Assembly: GCA_023444445.1 (NCBI GenBank)
Contig: JAEXMK010000230.1
Location: forward strand, 1-47,297
Length of the DNA: 47,297 bases
Source: Pseudomonadota bacterium
GTDB taxonomy: Bacteria; Pseudomonadota; Alphaproteobacteria; Rhizobiales; Rhizobiaceae
Direction: 5' to 3'
This document shows, one piece after another, positions 5,250 to 46,281 of this stretch. How positions within the stretch are numbered: position 1 is the stretch's first letter; each line of letters opens with the position of its first letter. Position numbers and translations under genes: made by a program. The notes below the pieces were generated by a model that worked only from the letters and a program-made list of their open reading frames with translations, had not been told where the DNA came from and made no database searches.

Positions 5250-8042
5250 TTGACTGACCAAAGTCCCCCCGGCGGCGGAAAGCTTCCGCCAGGCATCGAG
5301 CCGATTTCCATCATCGAGGAAATGCAGCGGTCGTATCTCGATTACGCGATGAGCGTTATCGTGTCGCGCGCACTTCCCGATGTTCGTGACGGCATGAAGC
5401 CTGTTCATCGCCGCATCCTGTACGGCATGTCCGAACTTGGCATCGACTGGAACAAGAAATACGTAAAGTGCGCCCGCGTCACCGGTGACGTGATGGGTAA
5501 ATTCCATCCGCACGGCAACTCTGCCATCTATGACGCGCTTGCGCGTATGGCGCAGGACTGGTCGCTGCGTCTGCCGCTGATCGACGGTCAGGGCAACTTC
5601 GGCTCGATCGACGGTGACCCGCCGGCGGCTGAACGTTATACCGAGTGCCGTCTGGAAAAGGCGGCGCACGCGCTGCTCGACGATCTCGACAAGGAAACCG
5701 TCGACTTCCGCGACAACTATGACGGTACGCTTCAGGAACCGGTGGTCATTCCGGCCAAGTTCCCGAACCTCCTGGTCAACGGTGCTGGCGGTATCGCCGT
5801 CGGCATGGCAACCAACATTCCGCCGCACAACCTTTCGGAAGTAATCGACGGCTGTATCGCGCTCATCGACAATCCGGCCATCGAGCTGGCCGAGATGATG
5901 CAGATCATTCCCGGTCCCGACTTCCCGACAGGCGCCTTCATCATGGGCCGCTCCGGCATCCGCTCGGCTTACGAGACGGGCAGGGGCTCGGTCATCATGC
6001 GTGGCCGCGCCACCATCGAACCGATGCGCGGCGACCGCGAGCAGATCATCATCACCGAAGTTCCCTACCAGGTGAACAAGGCAACGATGATTGAAAAGAT
6101 GGCCGAACTGGTCAAGGAAAAGCGCATCGAGGGCATTTCCGACCTGCGCGACGAGTCCGACCGTCAGGGCTACCGCGTCGTCATCGAGCTGAAGCGCGAT
6201 GCCAATGCCGAAGTCATTCTGAACCAGCTCTACCGTTACACGCCGCTGCAGACCTCCTTCGGCTGCAACATGGTGGCGCTGAACGGCGGCAAGCCGGAAC
6301 AGCTTACGCTGCTCGACATGCTGCGCGCTTTCGTATCCTTCCGTGAGGAAGTCGTCAGCCGCCGCACCAAGTACCTGCTGCGCAAGGCGCGCGACCGCGC
6401 GCATGTGTTGGTGGGTCTGGCCATTGCCGTCGCCAACATCGACGAAGTCATCCGCGTTATCCGCCACGCGCCGGACCCGGCGTCCGCGCGTGAAGAACTG
6501 ATGACGCGCCGCTGGCCGGCCGAGGATGTCGAAAGCCTCGTTCGCCTGATCGACGATCCGCGCCACCGCATCAACGAAGACGGCACCTACAACCTCTCGG
6601 AAGAGCAGGCACGCGCCATCCTCGAACTGCGTCTGGCCCGCCTGACCGCACTCGGACGTGACGAAATCGGCGACGAACTGAACAAGATCGGCGCTGAGAT
6701 CAGCGAATATCTCGAAATCCTGTCGTCGCGCGTGCGTATCCAGCAGATCGTCAAGGACGAGATGGCCGCAGTACGTGACGAATTCGGCACACCGCGCCGT
6801 TCGGAAATCGTCGAAGGCGGCCCCGACATGGACGATGAAGACCTCATCGCCCGTGAAGACATGGTCGTGACCGTATCGCATCTCGGCTACATCAAGCGCG
6901 TGCCGCTGACGACCTACAAGGCGCAGCGTCGCGGCGGCAAGGGCCGTTCGGGCATGGCAACGCGCGACGAGGATTTCGTCAACCGTCTGTTCGTGGCCAA
7001 CACCCATACGCCGGTGCTGTTCTTCTCCTCGCGTGGCATCGTCTACAAGGAAAAGGTCTGGCGCCTGCCGATCGGCACGCCACAGTCCAAGGGCAAGGCG
7101 CTGATCAACATGCTGCCGCTGGAACCCGGCGAACGCATCACCACCATCATGCCGCTGCCTGAGGACGAGACGACGTGGGAAACCCTCGACGTGATGTTCT
7201 CGACGACGCGCGGAACGGTGCGCCGTAACAAGCTGGGCGACTTCGTGCAGGTCAACCGCAACGGCAAGATCGCCATGAAACTGGATGAAGAGGGCGATCA
7301 GATCCTCTCCGTCGAAACCTGTACCGACCGTGACGACGTGTTGCTGACGACGGCGCTTGGCCAGTGCATCCGCTTCCCGGTCGATGACGTTCGCGTCTTT
7401 GCCGGCCGTAACTCGGTTGGCGTGCGCGGCATCAATCTGGGCGACAGCGACCGCATCATCTCCATGACCATCGTTGGCAGCAGCGATGCGGCCCCATGGG
7501 AGCGTGCAGCCTACCTCAAGCGTTCGGCCGCAGAACGCCGTGCAGCCGGTGTCGATGAAGAAGACATCGCGCTGGTCGGCGAAGAGGTGACGGAAGAAGG
7601 CGAGCTCGGCGAAGACCGTTATCAGGAACTCAAGGCACGCGAACAGTTCGTGCTGACTGTTTCCGAAAAGGGCTTCGGCAAGCGTTCGTCCTCCTACGAC
7701 TTCCGCACCTCCGGCCGTGGCGGCAAGGGCATCCGCGCCACCGATACGTCGAAGACGACGGAAATCGGCGAACTGGTTGCAGCCTTCCCGGTTGAAGACA
7801 ACGACCAGATCATGCTCGTCTCGGATGGCGGCCAGCTGATCCGCGTACCGGTTGCCGGTATCCGCATCGCCAGCCGCGCCACCAAGGGCGTGACGATCTT
7901 CTCGACGGCCAAGGATGAAAAGGTCGTCTCGGTCGAGCGCATCAACGAGCCGGAAGGCGACGAAGACGCTGAAAACGGCAATGGTGCCGAGGTCGAAGAC
8001 CAGGTCACCGAGCAGCCGGAAGCACCGGAAGGCGAGGCATAA
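5250..8042 (+). CDS. gyrA: DNA gyrase subunit A
   Basis: The breakage-reunion subunit of DNA gyrase, which with GyrB introduces negative supercoils. The protein has 930 residues, of normal alphaproteobacterial length, with an extra charged stretch near residues 755-790 and a long acidic C-terminal tail. The catalytic tyrosine is Y130, in ERYTE. The quinolone-resistance region reads [10 protein letters not shown], with S91 and D95 at the positions of E. coli S83 and D87, so it looks like a quinolone-sensitive allele. The GyrA box QRRGGKG is at 559-565, followed by the beta-pinwheel domain. Translation starts at TTG 5250; no in-frame ATG is near the family N-terminus. A strong terminator follows at 8073-8107. 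Confidence 0.97.
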
Positions 8043-31062: not shown

Positions 31063-31152
31063 GGATGGGTGTCCGAGTGGTTTAAGGAACCGGTCTTGAA
31101 AACCGGCGTGCGTGAGAGCGTACCGTGGGTTCGAATCCCACCCCATCTGCCA
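31063..31152 (+). tRNA. tRNA-Ser (anticodon UGA)
   Basis: A 90-base class II tRNA with an encoded CCA end. The acceptor stem GGATGGG pairs with CCCATCT (one G-U), the anticodon stem-loop is CCGGT-CTTGAAA-ACCGG with anticodon TGA, a long variable arm follows, and the T arm is GTGGG-TTCGAAT-CCCAC. It decodes UCA serine codons. The prophage integrase follows immediately, so the 3' end of this gene is the probable attachment core. Confidence 0.96.
31124..31152 (+). other. Probable attL core of the prophage
   Basis: The T arm and 3' end of tRNA-Ser border the integrase side of the prophage. P4-type integrases normally recombine within the 3' part of tRNA genes and leave a duplicated 3' end at the far junction. 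That second copy should lie beyond the right edge of this window, so the exact core cannot be fixed. Confidence 0.55.
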
Positions 31153-31307: not shown

Positions 31308-31319
31308 AAGGGAGTGGGC

Positions 31320-32618
31320 GTGCTTACCGACACGGCGATTCGAAAAGCGAAGGCTCAAGAGAAGCCTTACAAACTTTCTGACACCAACGGGCTACACGTC
31401 CATGTCAGCAAAGCCGGTAATAAGACCTTCCGATATCGATATGAGTTTCTGGGCAAGGAAAAGACGCTTGTCCTGGGCGACTATCCCGAGATGGGTTTGC
31501 TCGAGGCGAGACGCGCTCGTGATGAAGCGCGCCAGCTTTTGAAATCTGGCAAAGACCCGTCCGCGCAAAAGAAGCTCGAGAAGGCTATCCAACGGTCCGA
31601 CGCCGAGTCGACTTTTGCCGCCGTCGCCAAGGAGTGGTTTGAACTGGCCAGCGTCGTGTGGTCGCCCGCGCATGCAGATGAAGTTTGGCACACGTTAGAA
31701 CGAGACGTGATCCCGCACATCGGCCAGCTTCCGATCAAAGACATCGATGCTCCGATTGTGCTCGGTGTTCTACGGCTGGTCGAAAAGCGCGGGGCGATTG
31801 AAACGGCGAAACGTCTTCGTCAAAGAATATCGTCAGTCTTTGTCTATGGGATTTCATCCGGTCGGGCGTCATCCGATCCTGCGGCCATAGTGCAGGATGC
31901 ATTGGCGCCACTCGAGAAAAAAAGGCACCCAGCGGTTACATCGGTTCCGGCGGTCCAGAAGCTCCTCAAAGACGTCTGCGCCACACCAGGCCGGCCACAC
32001 GTCAAGCTTGGGATTCGTCTTCTCACTCTTACCTTCGTTCGCCCTGGAACATTGGCGGCAACGCCGTGGTCAGAGTGGGACGATCTGGATTCGGAAAACC
32101 CGGTTTGGCGCGTGCCTGCGGCTCGCATGAAGCTCAAGAAGAGCAAAAAGAACGACGAGAACTTCGACCATTTTGTGCCGCTGCCGCGTGAGGCTTTGGA
32201 CATCATAGCGTTGCTTCGACGTTTGACAGGGCGAGGCAAGTACGTGTTCCCAAACGCGAGGCGCCCTAGTGCGCCGATGTCAGGGAACGCCTTGGGCTAT
32301 ATGCTCAACAGGGCGGGCTACTACGGGGATCACGTACCGCACGGTTTCCGTGTCTCATTCTCGACGATCATGAACGAGCTTTTCCCGCTCGAGTATCGGA
32401 CCATCGACCACATGCTCGCGCACTCGCCGAAGGATAAAACTGAGGGCACCTATAACCGCTCGAGGCATATCGACCGCCGCTGCGAACTGGCACAGATCTA
32501 TGCGGATCTGGTCTTGGAAGGTGCGCCGTCGCTCGAGGAGTTTGTGAACGGACCTATCCGGATAAACAAAAAGGGGCCAAACCCGGCCCCCTCGAGGAAA
32601 AAGCGGATAGCGGCTTAA
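31320..32618 (+). CDS. int: Tyrosine-type site-specific integrase (P4 family)
   Basis: Prophage integrase, 432 residues. An N-terminal DUF4102-type arm-binding domain (MLTDTAIRKAKAQEKPYKL) is followed by a core-binding domain and a C-terminal catalytic domain with R241 (FVRPGTL), H341 and R344 (HGFR), H368 (MLAHSP) and the nucleophile Y378 (EGTYNRS). GTG 31320 is chosen because AAGGGA lies six bases upstream and the family N-terminus starts there; GTG 31314 touches the ribosome site. It lies next to tRNA-Ser and reads into the prophage. Its 3' end hides a terminator for the opposing early operon, and its stop codon overlaps that of the convergent last early gene. Confidence 0.94.
   Translation: MLTDTAIRKAKAQEKPYKLSDTNGLHVHVSKAGNKTFRYRYEFLGKEKTLVLGDYPEMGLLEARRARDEARQLLKSGKDPSAQKKLEKAIQRSDAESTFAAVAKEWFELASVVWSPAHADEVWHTLERDVIPHIGQLPIKDIDAPIVLGVLRLVEKRGAIETAKRLRQRISSVFVYGISSGRASSDPAAIVQDALAPLEKKRHPAVTSVPAVQKLLKDVCATPGRPHVKLGIRLLTLTFVRPGTLAATPWSEWDDLDSENPVWRVPAARMKLKKSKKNDENFDHFVPLPREALDIIALLRRLTGRGKYVFPNARRPSAPMSGNALGYMLNRAGYYGDHVPHGFRVSFSTIMNELFPLEYRTIDHMLAHSPKDKTEGTYNRSRHIDRRCELAQIYADLVLEGAPSLEEFVNGPIRINKKGPNPAPSRKKRIAA
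32564..32590 (-). terminator. Terminator of the leftward early operon, inside the int coding sequence
   Basis: GGGGCC (32573-32578) and GGCCCC (32585-32590) form a perfect stem. On the minus strand it is followed by TTTTTGTTTAT. It lies 25 bases beyond the stop codon of the last minus-strand gene and within the last 18 codons of int, so it is strand-specific and serves the phage PL operon. Confidence 0.82.
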
Positions 32619-40800: not shown

Positions 40801-40971
40801 TCAGCGCTTGCCAAGTTGAAGAGCGAGACGCAGGAGAAGCAGGAGGAAAAAGCCAAGGATCGCATCGATGATCCAGCCGGTGAAAATCGACAGAACGACC
40901 AACGCTGTGGCTGTTGTGAGGATGATCCCCGACGCCCGCTCTTTCGCCCACGCTTTTGCCCGGGCGATCAA
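40801..40971 (-). CDS. Small membrane protein partner of the TAXI-like gene
   Basis: A 56-residue protein read from TTG 40971, which overlaps the stop of the preceding gene as TTGA; GGAG lies eight bases upstream. The sequence has a basic amphipathic start (ARAKAWAKERA) and a hydrophobic core in two blocks separated by TGW (IILTTATALVVLSIF and IIDAILGFFLLLLL), ending LALQLGKR. It looks like a helical hairpin or two-span membrane peptide. Coupling to the exported TAXI-like protein suggests they act together, but small phage membrane peptides can also be holin-like or anti-superinfection factors. Confidence 0.65.
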   Translation of the reverse strand: MIARAKAWAKERASGIILTTATALVVLSIFTGWIIDAILGFFLLLLLRLALQLGKR

Positions 40972-41858
40972 TTCCCGTACTCCGCCTTCACAGCTTGTGC
41001 TGCGCGGGCCGCTGCCTGGACAAAGGTTGTCAGGGTCTTGGCGTCGATACGGTCAGTGTTGACGAAGATGGCGGCGGGCCAAGAGATTGTGCTGCGCGAC
41101 GAGAACCAGCCGCTCTGCAGATTGCGCGGGTAGGTGCCTTTCGGGATATCGCGATACTCATAGAGCGGATCGCCCTTGATATCGGTGGCATCGTCGAAGT
41201 CGCGATCCTTTGCGCCGGCCAACAGCACGGTATCGCCATAGACCTGATCTGCCTCGTTGACGATCCCGTTTTTCAGGCCAGCCGGAACCAACATGCACGT
41301 CGTTTCACCGCTCGAGACAGCAGACAGAGCGAGGGTGCCGCCTTCATTGCGAACCGGAACCTTGCCGTAGGATTCGTCCTCAGCAACGATGTTCTGCCAG
41401 ATCAGCCAAGCACCGCTGCCGGGTTCACCGATGGCGATCGAATACTTGGCAGGATCGTCGGGCAGGTCAGAGAGATCATCAACGCCCGACTTCTTGCCGC
41501 ACAGCACATGCAGGTATTCCCGGTGCAGCGTTGCCACCTGCCGCAGCTTCTTCACCTTGGCCGGTGACGAACGTCCGACGTAGACCGGGCCGTCAGGCTG
41601 GCCGATCATGGCGTCGCACGCTTCGGGGTTGGACGGGTCGAGATCGAGGACACGCTCGAGGTTATCAATCGTGCCTTCGGTCGGCACGTTGATGACGGTG
41701 AGCGATTTGCCAGCCATCTTTACAACGGCGTCACCCGCAGCGAAGTAGTTTCCGCTCTCAGCGCCGGTGCAGAGCCGGATTGACGCGGCCTTGGCGTGGC
41801 TGGCATGAAACGCCACGGCGAATAGAGCCGCGAGCATCAAAAAAATCAATGGCTTCAT
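40968..41858 (-). CDS. Secreted TAXI/TRAP-type solute-binding-like protein
   Basis: A 296-residue exported protein with a clear signal peptide (residues 1-24, MKPLIFLMLA to AKA). The mature part begins SIRLCTGAESGNYFAAGDAVVKM, which fits the TAXI family opening, where a binding protein of TRAP transporters has a G-x-x-x-G-x-Y-x-x-x-G loop. Further family-like parts are ERVLDLDPSNPEACDAMIGQ and YSIAIGEPGSGAWLIWQNI. No TRAP permease gene is nearby; the only coupled gene encodes a 56-residue membrane peptide. It lies inside the phage early operon, so it may be a lysogenic or early-infection cargo protein working in the periplasm. Confidence 0.75.
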   Translation of the reverse strand: MKPLIFLMLAALFAVAFHASHAKAASIRLCTGAESGNYFAAGDAVVKMAGKSLTVINVPTEGTIDNLERVLDLDPSNPEACDAMIGQPDGPVYVGRSSPAKVKKLRQVATLHREYLHVLCGKKSGVDDLSDLPDDPAKYSIAIGEPGSGAWLIWQNIVAEDESYGKVPVRNEGGTLALSAVSSGETTCMLVPAGLKNGIVNEADQVYGDTVLLAGAKDRDFDDATDIKGDPLYEYRDIPKGTYPRNLQSGWFSSRSTISWPAAIFVNTDRIDAKTLTTFVQAAARAAQAVKAEYGN

Positions 41859-42296: not shown

Positions 42297-42515
42297 TCAG
42301 TCTCCATTGGTGAGGCCCATGCGGGCGTTGTGGTGGCGATCGTATTCAGCGGCTTGGCGCAGCATGGCGTTGCGCGTCGCCTCGATGTGAGTGAGGTGAG
42401 ACCGGCCATGGAATGACCGGTGAGCCCTGCCGATGAGCCAGCCGCCGCCGAAAACGGCGATGGGCAGGGCGAGGCAGAACAGGGCAGTGAGAGCGGGGTC
42501 AGGCTGCACGCTCAA
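42297..42515 (-). CDS. Small single-span membrane protein
   Basis: A 72-residue protein with an N-terminal membrane helix (about 8-29; LTALFCLALPIAVFGGGWLI) and a basic, histidine-rich cytoplasmic tail. The function is unknown. It overlaps the methyltransferase gene by 17 bases. Confidence 0.6.
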   Translation of the reverse strand: MSVQPDPALTALFCLALPIAVFGGGWLIGRAHRSFHGRSHLTHIEATRNAMLRQAAEYDRHHNARMGLTNGD

Positions 42516-43080
42516 ACTCCGGATACTGGATCTCGGGGCGTGCCATCTTGCGGATGCGGCGCTTGTCGATGAGCTGCATGATGTGCATCACCGGTCCACG
42601 CCGATGCTGCTGGTGGAACCTGAACCACGCAAAATTGTCTTTGCTGTCGTGCTCCGTCTCGGAAAACCATCGCACGCGACCGATCGGCACGATGTCGGTG
42701 CACATCGGCATGAACTTCGCGCTCTGCAGGTTGAAAGCAAAATCCGCCTCGAGCAGAAGCCAGGTAGGCGCGATCTTCATGAACCGCACCAGCATCGCCT
42801 CGAGGATTTCCCACGTGTACGGCGGGTTGGTGATGATGGTGTCCGCCTTGGCAAGAGCGAGCCAAGGATCAGTCAGCGCATCAACGCCGTCCTGAATGTC
42901 TCCACTATGGACGCAAGACAGGTCGAAGCTCTCAAGCCAGCGGATCAGCCGGCCATCAGCTCTGCAGGGCTCCGCGAACGTCTCCACCCCCTCCAAGAAG
43001 GGGCGGAGCGGCAAAGCAGCCTCGTAGGGCGTCAGATACTGGTCGTGCTTGTTACGGGGGAAGTTGGAATACTTGCTCAC
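42499..43080 (-). CDS. Phage DNA N6-adenine-type methyltransferase-like protein
   Basis: A 193-residue protein: KYSNFPRNKHDQYLTPYEAALPLRPFL at the start, AEPCRADGRLIRWL as a motif I-like loop, and the catalytic motif TNPPY with NPPY at 85-88. The arrangement is that of short phage adenine methyltransferase-like proteins. GTG 43080 with GAGGG upstream fits the family start and leaves one base to the preceding gene; an ATG at 43140 would overlap that gene. It may protect phage DNA or alter host methylation. Confidence 0.78.
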   Translation of the reverse strand: MSKYSNFPRNKHDQYLTPYEAALPLRPFLEGVETFAEPCRADGRLIRWLESFDLSCVHSGDIQDGVDALTDPWLALAKADTIITNPPYTWEILEAMLVRFMKIAPTWLLLEADFAFNLQSAKFMPMCTDIVPIGRVRWFSETEHDSKDNFAWFRFHQQHRRGPVMHIMQLIDKRRIRKMARPEIQYPEFERAA

Positions 43081-43081
43081 G

Positions 43082-43369
43082 TCAGTTCGCCCTCTCACCG
43101 TACTGAGGGGCGACAATGGTGCCGACGACGTGATCGACATCGACCGTGTTGAACACGTTGGCGTAGAGGTAGATCAGCGACATAGCCTCAGCGAGGCCGG
43201 GTGTCGAATACCCGACCGCAGCCCCGAGCCAACGCTGGGGTGCCCCGGGGTAGAGGTAGCTCAACGCCGTGTAAGCAATGAGCTGCTGCGCAATAGGAGA
43301 GGTGGAGCGCTCAGAGGCGGCGTAGAGCGCAATGTGGGTGGCTTCTGGAAACTTGGGCAGCTCGCTCAT
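43082..43369 (-). CDS. Small phage early protein of unknown function
   Basis: A 95-residue protein, moderately hydrophobic with aromatic clusters (LIAYTALSYLYPGAPQRWLG and SLIYLYANVFN). No family is recalled. Coupled to the zinc-ribbon gene by a four-base overlap. Confidence 0.55.
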   Translation of the reverse strand: MSELPKFPEATHIALYAASERSTSPIAQQLIAYTALSYLYPGAPQRWLGAAVGYSTPGLAEAMSLIYLYANVFNTVDVDHVVGTIVAPQYGERAN

Positions 43370-43671
43370 GCCGCCTCACTGTAGATCGCCTGCATCATTG
43401 CGATGCGGTTCTGCAGCAACAGAGTGTCGATCATGTCCTGATCGAACGAACGGGTAGGCGCGCACTCCTGCCAGAGAATGACGTTCGCCTCCGGATCGCC
43501 CTCAGCCGCAGCGGTGCGCAGCTCGAAGCAATCCAAAACGTGGGTTTCGACGCGGCCATTCGTCGTACGGCCATCGTCACAGATCATGGGGCTGCTGCAG
43601 GCAGAGCAGCAGTCAGGGAAGATGTTGAGGCGTTCAACGTTGCCGCAGCCGGTGCAGGTCCAGAATTTCAT
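43366..43671 (-). CDS. Small phage zinc-ribbon protein
   Basis: A 101-residue protein with two CxxC-type knuckles at the N-terminus (CTGCGN and CCSACSS), making a likely zinc ribbon, followed by an acidic helical body. It may bind nucleic acid or RNA polymerase, but no family is recalled. Confidence 0.6.
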   Translation of the reverse strand: MKFWTCTGCGNVERLNIFPDCCSACSSPMICDDGRTTNGRVETHVLDCFELRTAAAEGDPEANVILWQECAPTRSFDQDMIDTLLLQNRIAMMQAIYSEAA

Positions 43672-43680
43672 GCCATCACC

Positions 43681-43800
43681 TCAACGGTTCAAGGTGACGT
43701 GGCACGTCGCGGACGACGCGGTGCAACGGCTCATGCCGTCATCGACATTGAAAATCAGGGCAAGCGATATCGCTCCCGCCAAAGCAAGCAGGGTCCGCAT
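43681..43800 (-). CDS. 39-residue exported or membrane peptide, first gene of the PL operon
   Basis: MRTLLALAGAISLALIF forms a signal-like hydrophobic start, followed by a short tail with two cysteines (SRCTAS and ATCHVT). A strong GGAGAGAG site precedes ATG 43800. It is the first gene after the leftward early promoter, about 49 bases from the inferred start point. It is too short for family assignment. Confidence 0.6.
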   Translation of the reverse strand: MRTLLALAGAISLALIFNVDDGMSRCTASSATCHVTLNR

Positions 43801-43855
43801 TCGTCTCTCTCCATCGGTAAATTCCGGTTGCGGCGAAGCAACCGTCGATGGAATG

Positions 43856-43885
43856 AAACTACTAGTAAACTTGTATCAATGTCAA
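43856..43885 (-). promoter_or_regulatory. PL-type leftward early promoter
   Basis: On the minus strand, TTGACA (43885-43880), an 18-base spacer and TAGTTT (43861-43856) place the start near 43849. The same hexamers occur in the rightward cro promoter. Operators at 43861 and 43885 cover it. Confidence 0.7.
43861..43874. promoter_or_regulatory. OL operator site 1
   Basis: ACTAG-TAAA-CTTGT: two five-base half-sites with a four-base centre, one mismatch from perfect symmetry. It lies in the PL spacer and touches the -10. Confidence 0.7.
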
Positions 43886-43898
43886 CTAGGAAACTAGT
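43885..43898. promoter_or_regulatory. OL operator site 2, with an extra half-site
   Basis: ACTAG-GAAA-CTAGT is perfectly symmetric in its half-sites, 24 bases from OL site 1 and touching the PL -35. A third half-site CTAGT follows at 43903-43907. Confidence 0.72.
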
Positions 43899-43937
43899 GA
43901 ACCTAGTAAAACAAAAAATCATCATTCAGAATCAATA

Positions 43938-43958
43938 GGGTGCTTCACCGGGGCACCC
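43938..43958 (-). terminator. Weak terminator candidate after the exported ClpP-like gene
   Basis: GGGTGC (43938-43943) pairs with GCACCC (43953-43958) and overlaps the 3' end of the gene. On the minus strand a T-rich stretch comes only some 20 bases later, so termination efficiency is doubtful. It would separate the repressor transcript from the PL operon. Confidence 0.4.
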
Positions 43959-44682
43959 CATAAGAACTCATGATGAGAAAGACGCACGTATGACGCTGTA
44001 TCGCATCGGCAATAGTTGAGCAGGCGCTCGTGTCTGCGGAGAGAAAGCTGGCCCAGCGCTTAACGTATTCCTTCTTGGAGATTTTCAGCCGCTTTGCCTC
44101 GCGTTCCTGAAAAGGAACGGGCTTGTGAGGGACGGAGAGTTTGAATTTCTGCAACTCGTCCGGCGTAAATATATGCATTTGGTCGGGCAGGGTACTCGAC
44201 GATATCTCGATCACTTCACCGGAAACACCCATTTCACGGGCAAATTTGAACAGCTCCGCAGTCGAATACTGAGTGAAACCTTGTGAGGCGGTCCGCTCAC
44301 CGCCGCCATAGAACTGGTGCCCGCCCAGCTCACCACCGGGATAGACGAAACGCTGCTCTCCTCCCATGAATGCGAACAAGCAGGCAGACACGCATTCTTC
44401 GCCTGGTCGGACATATGTAGAAAAACCTCGGTACCGCAGAATGCGGCCGAGCAGAACGCCCTCCCAGAGCGAGCCCCCAGGAGAGTTGAACGCAATGGCT
44501 CTGGAATCAGCCTTGCCAGACAGCAAGAGATTTTCGAGACGATCCGTATCGCCTTCCTCAATCCTACCCTCGAGAACAAGATAGGAACCTGTACTTGCAC
44601 TTGATTTCTCGACAAAATCGGCTGCGCTCGCTGTTGAGAACGTTACACCCGCCAGAATGACAGCCAACAAGCGCCGCAGCAT
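43945..44682 (-). CDS. Exported ClpP/crotonase-fold protein in the immunity region
   Basis: A 245-residue protein with a signal peptide (about 1-20, ending ASA) and a ClpP-like core. SPGG at 67-70 precedes GVLLGRILRYRG. CVSACLFAFMGG follows with S99 as likely nucleophile, then H122 in GGHQF. The serine-to-histidine spacing is close to that of E. coli ClpP (S97, H122); the third residue is uncertain. Relatives are periplasmic proteins of unknown function (COG3904 type). Its ATG directly abuts the repressor stop codon, so it is made with the repressor in lysogens. It occupies the place of rexAB in lambda, which suggests an exclusion, stress or surface-altering role. Confidence 0.8.
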   Translation of the reverse strand: MLRRLLAVILAGVTFSTASAADFVEKSSASTGSYLVLEGRIEEGDTDRLENLLLSGKADSRAIAFNSPGGSLWEGVLLGRILRYRGFSTYVRPGEECVSACLFAFMGGEQRFVYPGGELGGHQFYGGGERTASQGFTQYSTAELFKFAREMGVSGEVIEISSSTLPDQMHIFTPDELQKFKLSVPHKPVPFQEREAKRLKISKKEYVKRWASFLSADTSACSTIADAIQRHTCVFLIMSSYGVPR

Positions 44683-45276
44683 TTATAGGTCCATAAACGA
44701 TCTGTGCACACGTCCGATGACGGTGGGGGTGTTATCGGGAAACAGGGTAGGGAAGTCCTCTGTAGAAACGGGCTCGAAGCGATCAGGGTTCGAACGGTAG
44801 CGCTTGAAGGTCGCGTGTCCTTCTCCATCATCGATAACATAGCACTTATTCGAAATAAGCGTCTTGTCCTTCCGATTCACGATAATCGTGCTGCCATCCG
44901 GCGAGATACGATTCATCGATTCACCCTTCACCTGTAGCGCGAGCCAATCACCCGGCGGCAGGTCAGTGAAGTACAACGTAGCAAGGCGCTCTACGGTGAT
45001 GTCTGGCTGCATGAGATTTCCAGCGCTGACCCATGTCACGAGCGGGACGGGGGTTGTCGGGATGCCCGAGGTGTCGGGGGTATATGCATCATCAATTGCG
45101 TGAACCGGGACGCCAAGAGCATAGGCGAGGCCGGGTAGCTCTGTGGTCGCTGAGTTTTTCCCGTTCTCGAGCTGAGAGACAAGCTGTTGGCTCACGCCTG
45201 CTTTTTCCGCGAGTGTCGCCTGTGACAGGCCCGCGGCTTTTCGAAGTCTTTTGAGATTTTCTGCGATTGTTGCCAT
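44683..45276 (-). CDS. CI-type S24 phage repressor
   Basis: A 197-residue lysogeny repressor. The N-terminal HTH (about 5-40; LRKAAGLSQATLAEKAGVSQQ) binds operators. The C-terminal LexA/S24 domain has the cleavage pair A85-G86 in VSAGNL, the catalytic serine S120 in GESMNRI and lysine K158 in TFKRY, spaced as in LexA. RecA-driven self-cleavage and SOS induction of the prophage are therefore expected. ATG 45276 is chosen; the upstream frame runs into the operators. It is divergent from cro. Confidence 0.92.
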   Translation of the reverse strand: MATIAENLKRLRKAAGLSQATLAEKAGVSQQLVSQLENGKNSATTELPGLAYALGVPVHAIDDAYTPDTSGIPTTPVPLVTWVSAGNLMQPDITVERLATLYFTDLPPGDWLALQVKGESMNRISPDGSTIIVNRKDKTLISNKCYVIDDGEGHATFKRYRSNPDRFEPVSTEDFPTLFPDNTPTVIGRVHRSFMDL

Positions 45277-45286
45277 AGGCCATTTT

Positions 45287-45300
45287 ACCAACGTGCTAGT
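45287..45300. promoter_or_regulatory. OR operator site nearest the repressor gene
   Basis: ACCAA-CGTG-CTAGT has one perfect half-site and one degenerate half-site. It lies 24 bases from the middle site and 11 bases upstream of the repressor start codon, a good position for repressor autoregulation. Confidence 0.5.
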
Positions 45301-45310
45301 AAATACGCAC

Positions 45311-45324
45311 ACAAGGAAACTAGT
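45311..45324. promoter_or_regulatory. Middle OR operator site
   Basis: ACAAG-GAAA-CTAGT is one mismatch from the symmetric site, and its end touches the cro -35 (45324-45329). Confidence 0.7.
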
Positions 45325-45352
45325 TGACACACATCGTCGTTGTTACTAGTTT
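45324..45352 (+). promoter_or_regulatory. Cro promoter (PR type) giving an apparently leaderless mRNA
   Basis: TTGACA (45324-45329), a 17-base spacer and TAGTTT (45347-45352). Start seven bases after the -10 falls at 45359, the A of the cro start codon. No ribosome site is present because operator sequence fills the space up to the ATG. Confidence 0.65.
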
Positions 45353-45358
45353 TCTTGT
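45345..45358. promoter_or_regulatory. OR operator site abutting the cro start codon
   Basis: ACTAG-TTTT-CTTGT ends one base before the cro ATG and covers the -10 of its promoter, so binding would shut off cro. It is 34 bases from the middle site, one helical turn more than the 24-base spacing used elsewhere. Confidence 0.7.
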
Positions 45359-45589
45359 ATGTCTGATTTTCGCCCATTAATCCGTCGCGCCATTGAGGTT
45401 GCAGGCAGCCAGGAAAAGCTCGCTGAAAAAGCGGGCTGTTCTCAGCAGCAAATTTCATGGCTGCTTACCAAAGCCAAGAAAGTCAGCGCTGAGCACGCTG
45501 TTGGCTTTGAGCGCGCCACCGACGGTGCCGTGAAGCGCAACGAGTTTCGTCCGGACCTCTTTCCGACGGAAGGAGCCGATGCCGCATGA
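45359..45589 (+). CDS. Cro/YdaS-like HTH protein
   Basis: A 76-residue helix-turn-helix protein (about 8-42; IEVAGSQEKLAEKAGCSQQQ followed by ISWLL) of the YdaS/Cro type, located where lambda has cro. It likely competes with the repressor for the operators and favours lytic growth. ATG 45359 directly follows an operator and coincides with the inferred transcription start. Its stop overlaps the next gene as ATGA. Confidence 0.85.
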   Translation: MSDFRPLIRRAIEVAGSQEKLAEKAGCSQQQISWLLTKAKKVSAEHAVGFERATDGAVKRNEFRPDLFPTEGADAA

Positions 45590-46281
45590 CGTCGCTCAAG
45601 CCGGTTGAAACCATTCATTTCAGCAAACATCAGGGGGCCCATTTGAACATTCTCCAATTTCCCACCCCAGCAGCACCTCACGTCCCCGGGCGCTGCGACA
45701 CCGAAGCGGCAGGTATTGCGTCCGCTTCGGTGCCCCAATCCCAGCATTCCGCGTCCCTGCGGTTTGCGTGGCTGGCCATGATCGCGTCTACTGTCCGCAA
45801 AACCCTTCGCCTGATTGCCCAGCCATCGCATTCCACTGCTTCTTCCGTTCGCACCGGTCGAAGCGTCTTCGGTTTCTCCGAAGAGGATCACCGACGTTTT
45901 GACAATGCCACGTCACGACGTACCGTTTCCGCAGGGAAGATCCCGCAAAGTTGCGGGGCTGGCTCATCACCTCTGTTTGACGTGACGGGCCTGATTGACT
46001 GGCTGCGCAAGAAATACCCGCGATCCACGACGTTCCACGTCGAAGCCAAAACGGGAATTCCAGCCGCCAGCGTAGAGAACTGGCTGCACCGGCGCTCTCA
46101 GCCGTCGGTGCAGCATTTCTCAATCCTTATCGCCGTGTTCGGTCCCAGCCTTCTCGCTGCTTCCTTTCCGAAGCCACCGATGTGGGTGTCGGAAGCCGTC
46201 CAGGCGCAGCGCCGACGCGAGATCGACGCTCAGATCGAAATGCTGCAGCGAGAACGCGACAATTTCAGCGAGGTGGCGTGA
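45586..46281 (+). CDS. Phage protein in the CII position, HTH-like C-terminal half
   Basis: A 231-residue protein coupled to cro by ATGA. The first 120 residues are of low complexity (Ser, Ala, Pro, Arg) and recall no family. Residues about 130-185 (LIDWLRKKYPRSTTFHVEAK, then TGIPAASVENWLHR) look like an HTH with a downstream helical tail. The real protein may start further in, but no good ribosome site marks one. By position it could be a CII-like regulator or an early replication gene. Confidence 0.55.
   Translation: MTSLKPVETIHFSKHQGAHLNILQFPTPAAPHVPGRCDTEAAGIASASVPQSQHSASLRFAWLAMIASTVRKTLRLIAQPSHSTASSVRTGRSVFGFSEEDHRRFDNATSRRTVSAGKIPQSCGAGSSPLFDVTGLIDWLRKKYPRSTTFHVEAKTGIPAASVENWLHRRSQPSVQHFSILIAVFGPSLLAASFPKPPMWVSEAVQAQRRREIDAQIEMLQRERDNFSEVA

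Follow-up and report, generated by a model that had tools for sequence, protein, structure and literature searches.

A predicted exported ClpP-fold protein recurs in the rexAB-like slot behind three types of prophage repressor

Which genes does a prophage keep directly behind its repressor? The rexAB slot of lambda is the classic case, yet few of the gene families found there are understood. In a 47,297-nucleotide contig from a member of the Rhizobiaceae (JAEXMK010000230.1, assembly GCA_023444445.1; this whole analysed stretch is the window), an earlier note had placed a gene for an exported ClpP-fold protein in this slot, next to a CI-type repressor gene, and had raised the possibility of superinfection exclusion. 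The gene order, the coordinates and the direct abutment of the two genes that it gave were borne out by the window sequence. From right to left, the region consists of a Cro-like gene, the right operator (OR), an S24 repressor gene, the ClpP-like gene, the left operator (OL) and the left operon. As in the rexAB-like arrangement claimed, the ClpP-like gene lies between the repressor gene and the left promoter (PL) and runs in the direction of the repressor gene. What is new is that a ClpP-like gene recurs in this same slot behind three types of repressor. The immunity region has the following features:

43853–43902: OL operator cluster, with an exact site at 43861–43874 and weaker sites at 43885–43902
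43945–44682, minus strand: exported ClpP-fold (COG3904-type) protein, 245 amino acids (aa); S99 codon at 44386–44388, H122 codon at 44317–44319
44683–45276, minus strand: CI-type repressor, HTH_3 plus Peptidase_S24, 197 aa; its stop codon directly precedes the start codon of the ClpP-like gene (TAA/ATG at 44683/44682, zero bases between)
45287–45358: OR operator cluster, with exact sites at 45311–45324 and 45345–45358
45359–45589, plus strand: Cro-like gene (YdaS_toxin/Cro helix-turn-helix [HTH]), on the strand opposite to the repressor gene

The operators postulated on either side of the repressor gene and the exported gene are present as exact copies of ACTAGTNNNNTTGT. This sequence has exactly three exact matches in the 47,297 bases, one in OL (43861) and two in OR (45311 and 45345), and all three fall within the two intergenic gaps of the immunity region (0.02 expected; three were reached in 0 of 100 shuffles). 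The operator claim rests on these exact sites because the pattern with two mismatches showed no window-wide enrichment (14 matches versus 10.8 expected). Two relatives, L040 and L044, carry the same three exact sites at the same places, bracketing the repressor and ClpP-like genes. The operator comparison covered types I and II of the three repressor types described below; type-II modules have their own TATCCTCTATAGAGGATA-like operators, which flank the two genes on both sides. Scanning positions 43600–45700 for promoters and terminators gave small counts near expectation (0 promoters, 1.2 expected; 2 terminators, 2.3 expected).

The signal peptide, SPGG motif, C-V-S-A-C nucleophile turn and histidine reported for the exported protein are all found in its translation. 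Judged by eye, the N-terminus is a signal peptide (MLRRLLAVILAGVTFSTASA/A), so the protein should be secreted, and a hydrophobic-window rule called export for the window protein and for six of the seven slot ClpP-like proteins tested, with L034 falling short. The motifs are NSPGG (66–70), C97-V-S99-A-C101 and H122. The earlier note had named a lack of conserved catalytic residues as evidence that would count against it. We aligned 69 of 124 collected proteins with ten locus translations, chosen by length, and the Ser, His and oxyanion residues proved invariant: S67, G69, G70, S99 and H122 were present in all 79 rows, as were T164 and Q138, and CxSxC was present in 43 of 43 alignment rows.

The window protein is predicted to have a ClpP fold, as the earlier note had proposed, and a profile-level match in the Protein Data Bank (PDB) supports this: a single-sequence PDB search gave nothing below E 0.48, and a profile search reached 5e-4. 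Among three PDB alignments compared, only the best aligns S99 with the ClpP serine; in the remaining two the register is off by two residues at this point. The window protein had no match in Pfam, NCBIfam or PADLOC (0 Pfam families at E <= 1, PF00574 included); some of its relatives do carry PF00574. PHROGs returned phrog_30575 (function unknown, 5e-10) and, weakly, phrog_1827 (“ATP-dependent protease”, 0.014). The label COG3904 is the name given to homologues in their source records and rests on the names of these relatives. The signal peptide and the position in the immunity region ruled out a head-maturation ClpP protease, and the absence of Pfam, NCBIfam and PADLOC matches ruled out a RexA/RexB homologue or a listed defence gene.

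The earlier note had proposed surveying prophages for this family next to S24 repressors. We anchored our survey on the methyltransferase-like neighbour rather than on the ClpP-like gene, which yielded 9 loci from bacteria and 35 from viruses. The same layout was present in 25 of the 44 loci, which were scored (L054 by layout, its Zn-ribbon gene being unmatched); the 19 loci without it were left out. The scored loci formed 18 clusters at 90% identity. The window, together with L108 and L132, which were found via the ClpP-like gene, lies outside these clusters. A ClpP-like gene occupied the slot in 13 of the 25 loci, or 11 of the 18 clusters, and it stood beside HTH repressors of three types, of which the S24 repressor is only the first. 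In type I (the window, L040 and L044), the repressor has an S24 domain and the gap to the ClpP-like gene is 0 or −1 bases. In type II (L041–L043, L046–L050 and Atu_ph08), a short HTH_3 repressor without S24 is followed by a gap of 151–164 bases. In type III (L032, L034 and L054), the repressor is another, weakly matched HTH protein, named from HTH matches below the Pfam cut-off (L032 and L034) or from likeness judged by eye (L054), and the gap is −1, or −4 if L032 starts at TTG. Type-III repressors resemble the PBC5 repressor (L132 match, 5e-3). The type-II and type-III ClpP-like proteins are only 26–38% identical to the window protein while the flanking phage DNA stays similar, which suggests that the immunity module, cargo included, may be exchanged as a block between phages.

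The type-II gap holds a conserved open reading frame (ORF) that runs against the repressor and ClpP-like genes. This ORF of 61–68 aa (MR[IV]S.L[VI]..L..L..EQK..C in most) opposes the repressor gene, overlaps its 3' end and reaches into the gap. It was found in nine of ten loci scanned (L003, 7728–7916, plus strand; L041, L042, L046, L047, L049, L050, L108 and L033) and not in L043, and it is possibly an antisense regulator. A third gene in the forward direction between the type-II repressor and ClpP-like genes was rejected, the forward ORF being broken in L041, L042 and L043.

Other genes take the slot as well. It holds a lipoprotein-like gene in L045 and a membrane protein gene in L033. A second survey, which started from the type-II repressor and comprised 23 loci with gene lists judged by eye, found lipoprotein-like (L177 and L178), secreted (L174/L176) and small membrane (L182) proteins, together with an Arc-like protein (L165–L167) and small soluble proteins (L175 and L180). 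The occupants of L033 and L045 had no Pfam match above cut-off, and those of L033, L045, L177 and L178 had no PHROG match. By the hydrophobicity rule, 7 of 10 co-directional occupant families, picked from the gene lists, were exported or membrane proteins, versus 52 of 438 other genes of the loci (12%; P = 3e-5); this background includes 56 window genes, some of them bacterial, and is 38 of 382 without them. The test left out eight groups that lack a close co-directional gene (L031/51/53, L052, L055–58, L059, L060, L171/172, L173 and L181). In a stricter count that took L173 and L181, where the next same-strand ORFs are more than 500 bases away, as non-exported, the figure was 7 of 12 (P = 1.5e-4). 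In L055–L058 the slot is filled by an opposing ORF whose N-terminus is signal-like, and in PBC5-like regions by an opposing ORF that matches an HTH weakly; no slot gene was seen in L059 and L060.

Related copies of the ClpP-like gene are under purifying selection, that is, the gene has been kept functional. We computed the ratio of nonsynonymous to synonymous substitution rates (dN/dS) for type-II pairs and for L040/L044; for the window versus L040/L044, dS was saturated. Type-II genes gave dN/dS values of 0.08–0.20 where dS was computable, several dS values being above 2 and near saturation, and the L040/L044 pair gave 0.12. The ClpP-like gene changes faster than its repressor gene: across Atu_ph08, L041, L042 and L043, the repressors are 96–100% identical, versus 78–93% for the ClpP-like proteins. 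The slot proteins did not form a single clean clade in a tree. Because the slot label needs two changes and L034/L054 are placed next to a chromosomal protein at middling support (82/83), we claim no single origin for them.

Placement, flanking operators, signal peptide, predicted fold, invariant residues, purifying selection and recurrence in the slot can all be read from the sequence, and this anatomy is solid; the function we infer. Our tentative explanation, to which we give a probability of about 0.45, is that the prophage repressor gene is followed, as second gene, by one for a secreted ClpP-fold serine hydrolase, envelope cargo expressed in lysogeny and most likely a periplasmic superinfection-exclusion hydrolase. 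In types I and III the two genes touch or overlap, so lysogens should make the protein, and the lysogenic expression claimed in the earlier note is probable. Coupled to the repressor in this way, the protein would be produced in every lysogen, pass into the periplasm and there block or disarm incoming phages, whether it cleaves a tail, ejection or receptor protein or binds to one. A more specific version, in which the lysogen secretes a ClpP-fold serine protease that cuts a tail or ejection protein of the incoming phage or its receptor, from an interchangeable envelope-cassette slot behind the repressor, is rather unlikely. If it is correct, exclusion in the periplasm would be enzymatic, and immunity types would exchange it as a module. 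Because a gene of this kind holds its place in related viruses whose dormancy switches differ, it probably serves to protect or alter the outer layers of the host cell, a soil bacterium. The slot itself would be an interchangeable site for envelope-acting lysogeny genes, with the ClpP-like enzyme its commonest occupant in this phage group.

Neither the slot nor envelope exclusion as an idea is new. Lambda rexAB likewise lies between the repressor gene and PL and points in the direction of the repressor gene; RexB is an inner-membrane protein and RexA is cytosolic. By contrast, the window protein has no Pfam match at E <= 1 and hence none to the RexA/RexB families, for which Pfam holds models. 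The repressor–n region is described as a moron site of lambdoid phages in the part of PMC7067206 seen. The best fit would be a periplasmic exclusion protein like Glo of K139 and Ltp of TP-J34, whose products are also exported. According to the available part of PMC3952083, Glo is soluble and periplasmic, and Ltp is a lipoprotein from a lysogeny module that holds a CI-type repressor gene and is transcribed one way; an exclusion function is reported there for both, and a ClpP fold is mentioned for neither. The nearest phage counterpart is the “putative periplasmic protein” AUZ95488.1 of Atu_ph08, which sits in the same slot between repressor and OL and is 33% identical to the window protein overall (38% over 68% of the query). 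It differs in its type-II repressor without S24, its operators, a 164-base gap and a C-terminus of the form CPFP...DPLNLYPAC. By gene order (71st of 75), we take it to be gp71, which was published as “predicted to be a Clp protease”; the portion of PMC6630229 seen does not connect it with immunity. Our literature searches on this gene turned up no ClpP-like protein linked to exclusion, nor a secreted ClpP-fold enzyme as a recurrent occupant of the slot.

Several results weigh against the exclusion hydrolase. The slot lacks a ClpP-like gene in 7 of the 18 clusters; PADLOC gave 0 matches at E <= 1 for three slot ClpP-like proteins and two other occupants; and in type II, with its gap and opposing ORF, we are unsure that the repressor and ClpP-like genes are co-transcribed. 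Nor is the ClpP-like fold itself specific to immunity, because the broad family is found widely (matches in 253 of 394 Rhizobiaceae genomes at E <= 1e-8, with at most six candidates scored per genome), its relatives on viral contigs lie in the slot in 13 of 34 cases and elsewhere in 21, and in further phages, Atu_ph07 and VnaP among them, the relatives belong to no repressor operon seen. Finally, the Ser-His-Asp triad of ClpP (MEROPS S14) is incomplete: Ser and His are invariant, and no ClpP-type acid is conserved near residue 167, which is D in 47 of the 79 rows and otherwise E, N, Q, S, A, K or T. The variable acid favours a catalytically dead ClpP-fold protein that would bind as a plug or decoy, and some exclusion proteins do act by binding. 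We consider this improbable: the nucleophile, histidine and oxyanion glycines, with T164 and Q138, are without exception in the alignment, and a ClpP in which Asn replaces the acid has been solved (Listeria ClpP1, whose PDB titles 4jcq/4jcr name a residue N165 that we take to be the acid position). Compared with ClpP (S14) and NfeD/1510-N, the window protein shares the fold, the Ser nucleophile and the oxyanion GG with both, and the His with ClpP; its signal peptide and variable acid set it apart, and no ATPase partner was seen. The catalytic Lys of NfeD/1510-N (whose entries are K138A mutants) has no counterpart among the invariant columns of the 79 rows.

A role in host fitness is doubtful, though less so than a dead protein: the secreted hydrolase would do envelope quality control or nutrient or stress work as a backup for a chromosomal COG3904 function, unrelated to other phages. 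The abundance of the family in Rhizobiaceae genomes, repeatedly in one recurring neighbourhood, speaks for it, and an exported TAXI/NMT1-like protein on the same prophage hints at general envelope cargo. The slot subfamily is, however, set apart by a score gap: among the best 120 of 192 matches, from the 7999 candidates sharing most words, 14 scored at least 213 bits and the next 154. The slot is also used by lipoproteins and membrane proteins, a common make-up of the exclusion proteins described in the available part of PMC3952083. That homologues might lie mostly outside immunity regions, which the earlier note had listed as a refutation, is true of the broad family and fails for the prophage subfamily: 17 of 18 subfamily loci with readable DNA are in the slot, the exception being L105, in mobile-element-like DNA near an XRE gene. 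We judge least probable of all a part in lysogeny control, in which the protein would sense or cut an envelope protein and feed back on induction or establishment. The gene does adjoin or overlap the repressor gene and is kept with three repressor types; on the other side stand its signal peptide and the lack, among the gene lists read, of a signalling partner common to the three module types. With one exported enzyme family behind three repressor types, and with the other same-strand slot genes mostly encoding lipoproteins, membrane or exported proteins, we predict that in alphaproteobacterial prophages the genes of this slot work at the cell envelope and are probably directed against other phages. 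A widespread family of secreted ClpP-like proteins, for which no function was found, would thereby also gain a role open to testing.

The periplasmic COG3904 proteins of this wider family share C-x-S-x-C, NSPGG, G-x-H-Q and an N-terminal signal or anchor with the window protein, and many are 250–300 aa long. They differ in lower profile scores (no more than 154 bits among those 120 matches) and in context: those examined lie in host genomes, and in the 15 wider-family regions read (of 16 such regions among 20 genome regions fetched), no neighbour matched the repressor queries. In Rhizobiaceae, a search with the single sequence gave matches in 55 of 101 relatives. Five host-genome relatives (L109, L110, L111, L113 and L118) adjoin a membrane protein gene of one kind (about 440–460 aa, ..LETMTRFVLATLALGSGVYTYLGVRSLLDG..), which suggests a conserved envelope gene pair in Rhizobiaceae. 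Among some of the non-slot relatives in viral contigs (L148, L149, L154, L155, L158 and L159), several lie near a glutaredoxin-like or a large nucleotide-metabolism-type ORF by eye. L152, L156 and L157 each have a lower-scoring relative about 1.3 kb or less from a repressor-like XRE gene, in opposite orientation, again by eye.

Judging by DNA likeness, the end of the window lies inside a prophage of the Atu_ph08/PBC5 group. The integrase DNA (31314–32618) shares 79% identity with the integrase region of Agrobacterium phage Atu_ph08, and from 42.5 kb on the DNA matches Atu_ph08 at 78% identity over 35% of that stretch and Sinorhizobium phage PBC5 at 70% over 25%. After OL, the left operon runs through a microprotein, a Zn-ribbon protein and a methyltransferase-like protein. 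The remaining features are:

31063–31152: tRNA-Ser(tga), upstream neighbour of the prophage integrase gene
31314–32618, plus strand: prophage integrase, adjoining tRNA-Ser
42499–43080, minus strand: DNA-methyltransferase-like phage protein (phrog_799), anchor of the slot survey
43366–43671, minus strand: Zn-ribbon-like phage protein (phrog_32954), marker of the left operon
43681–43800, minus strand: microprotein of 39 aa whose N-terminus is signal-like; its gene opens the left (PL) operon and is kept in relatives

The left operon also encodes the exported TAXI/NMT1-like solute-binding protein (40968–41858, minus strand; phrog_6856, TRAP_TAXI), and TAXI/NMT1-like ORFs are present in Atu_ph08 (L003) and PBC5 (L004) too. 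Microproteins of 39–45 aa with a signal-like N-terminus (for example, MRTLLALAGAISLALIFNVDDGMSRCTASSATCHVTLNR) head the left operon in relatives with and without the ClpP-like gene, at 6207–6335 in L032, 6279–6398 in L045, 6039–6167 in L046, 6004–6132 in L055 and 6501–6629 in L060.
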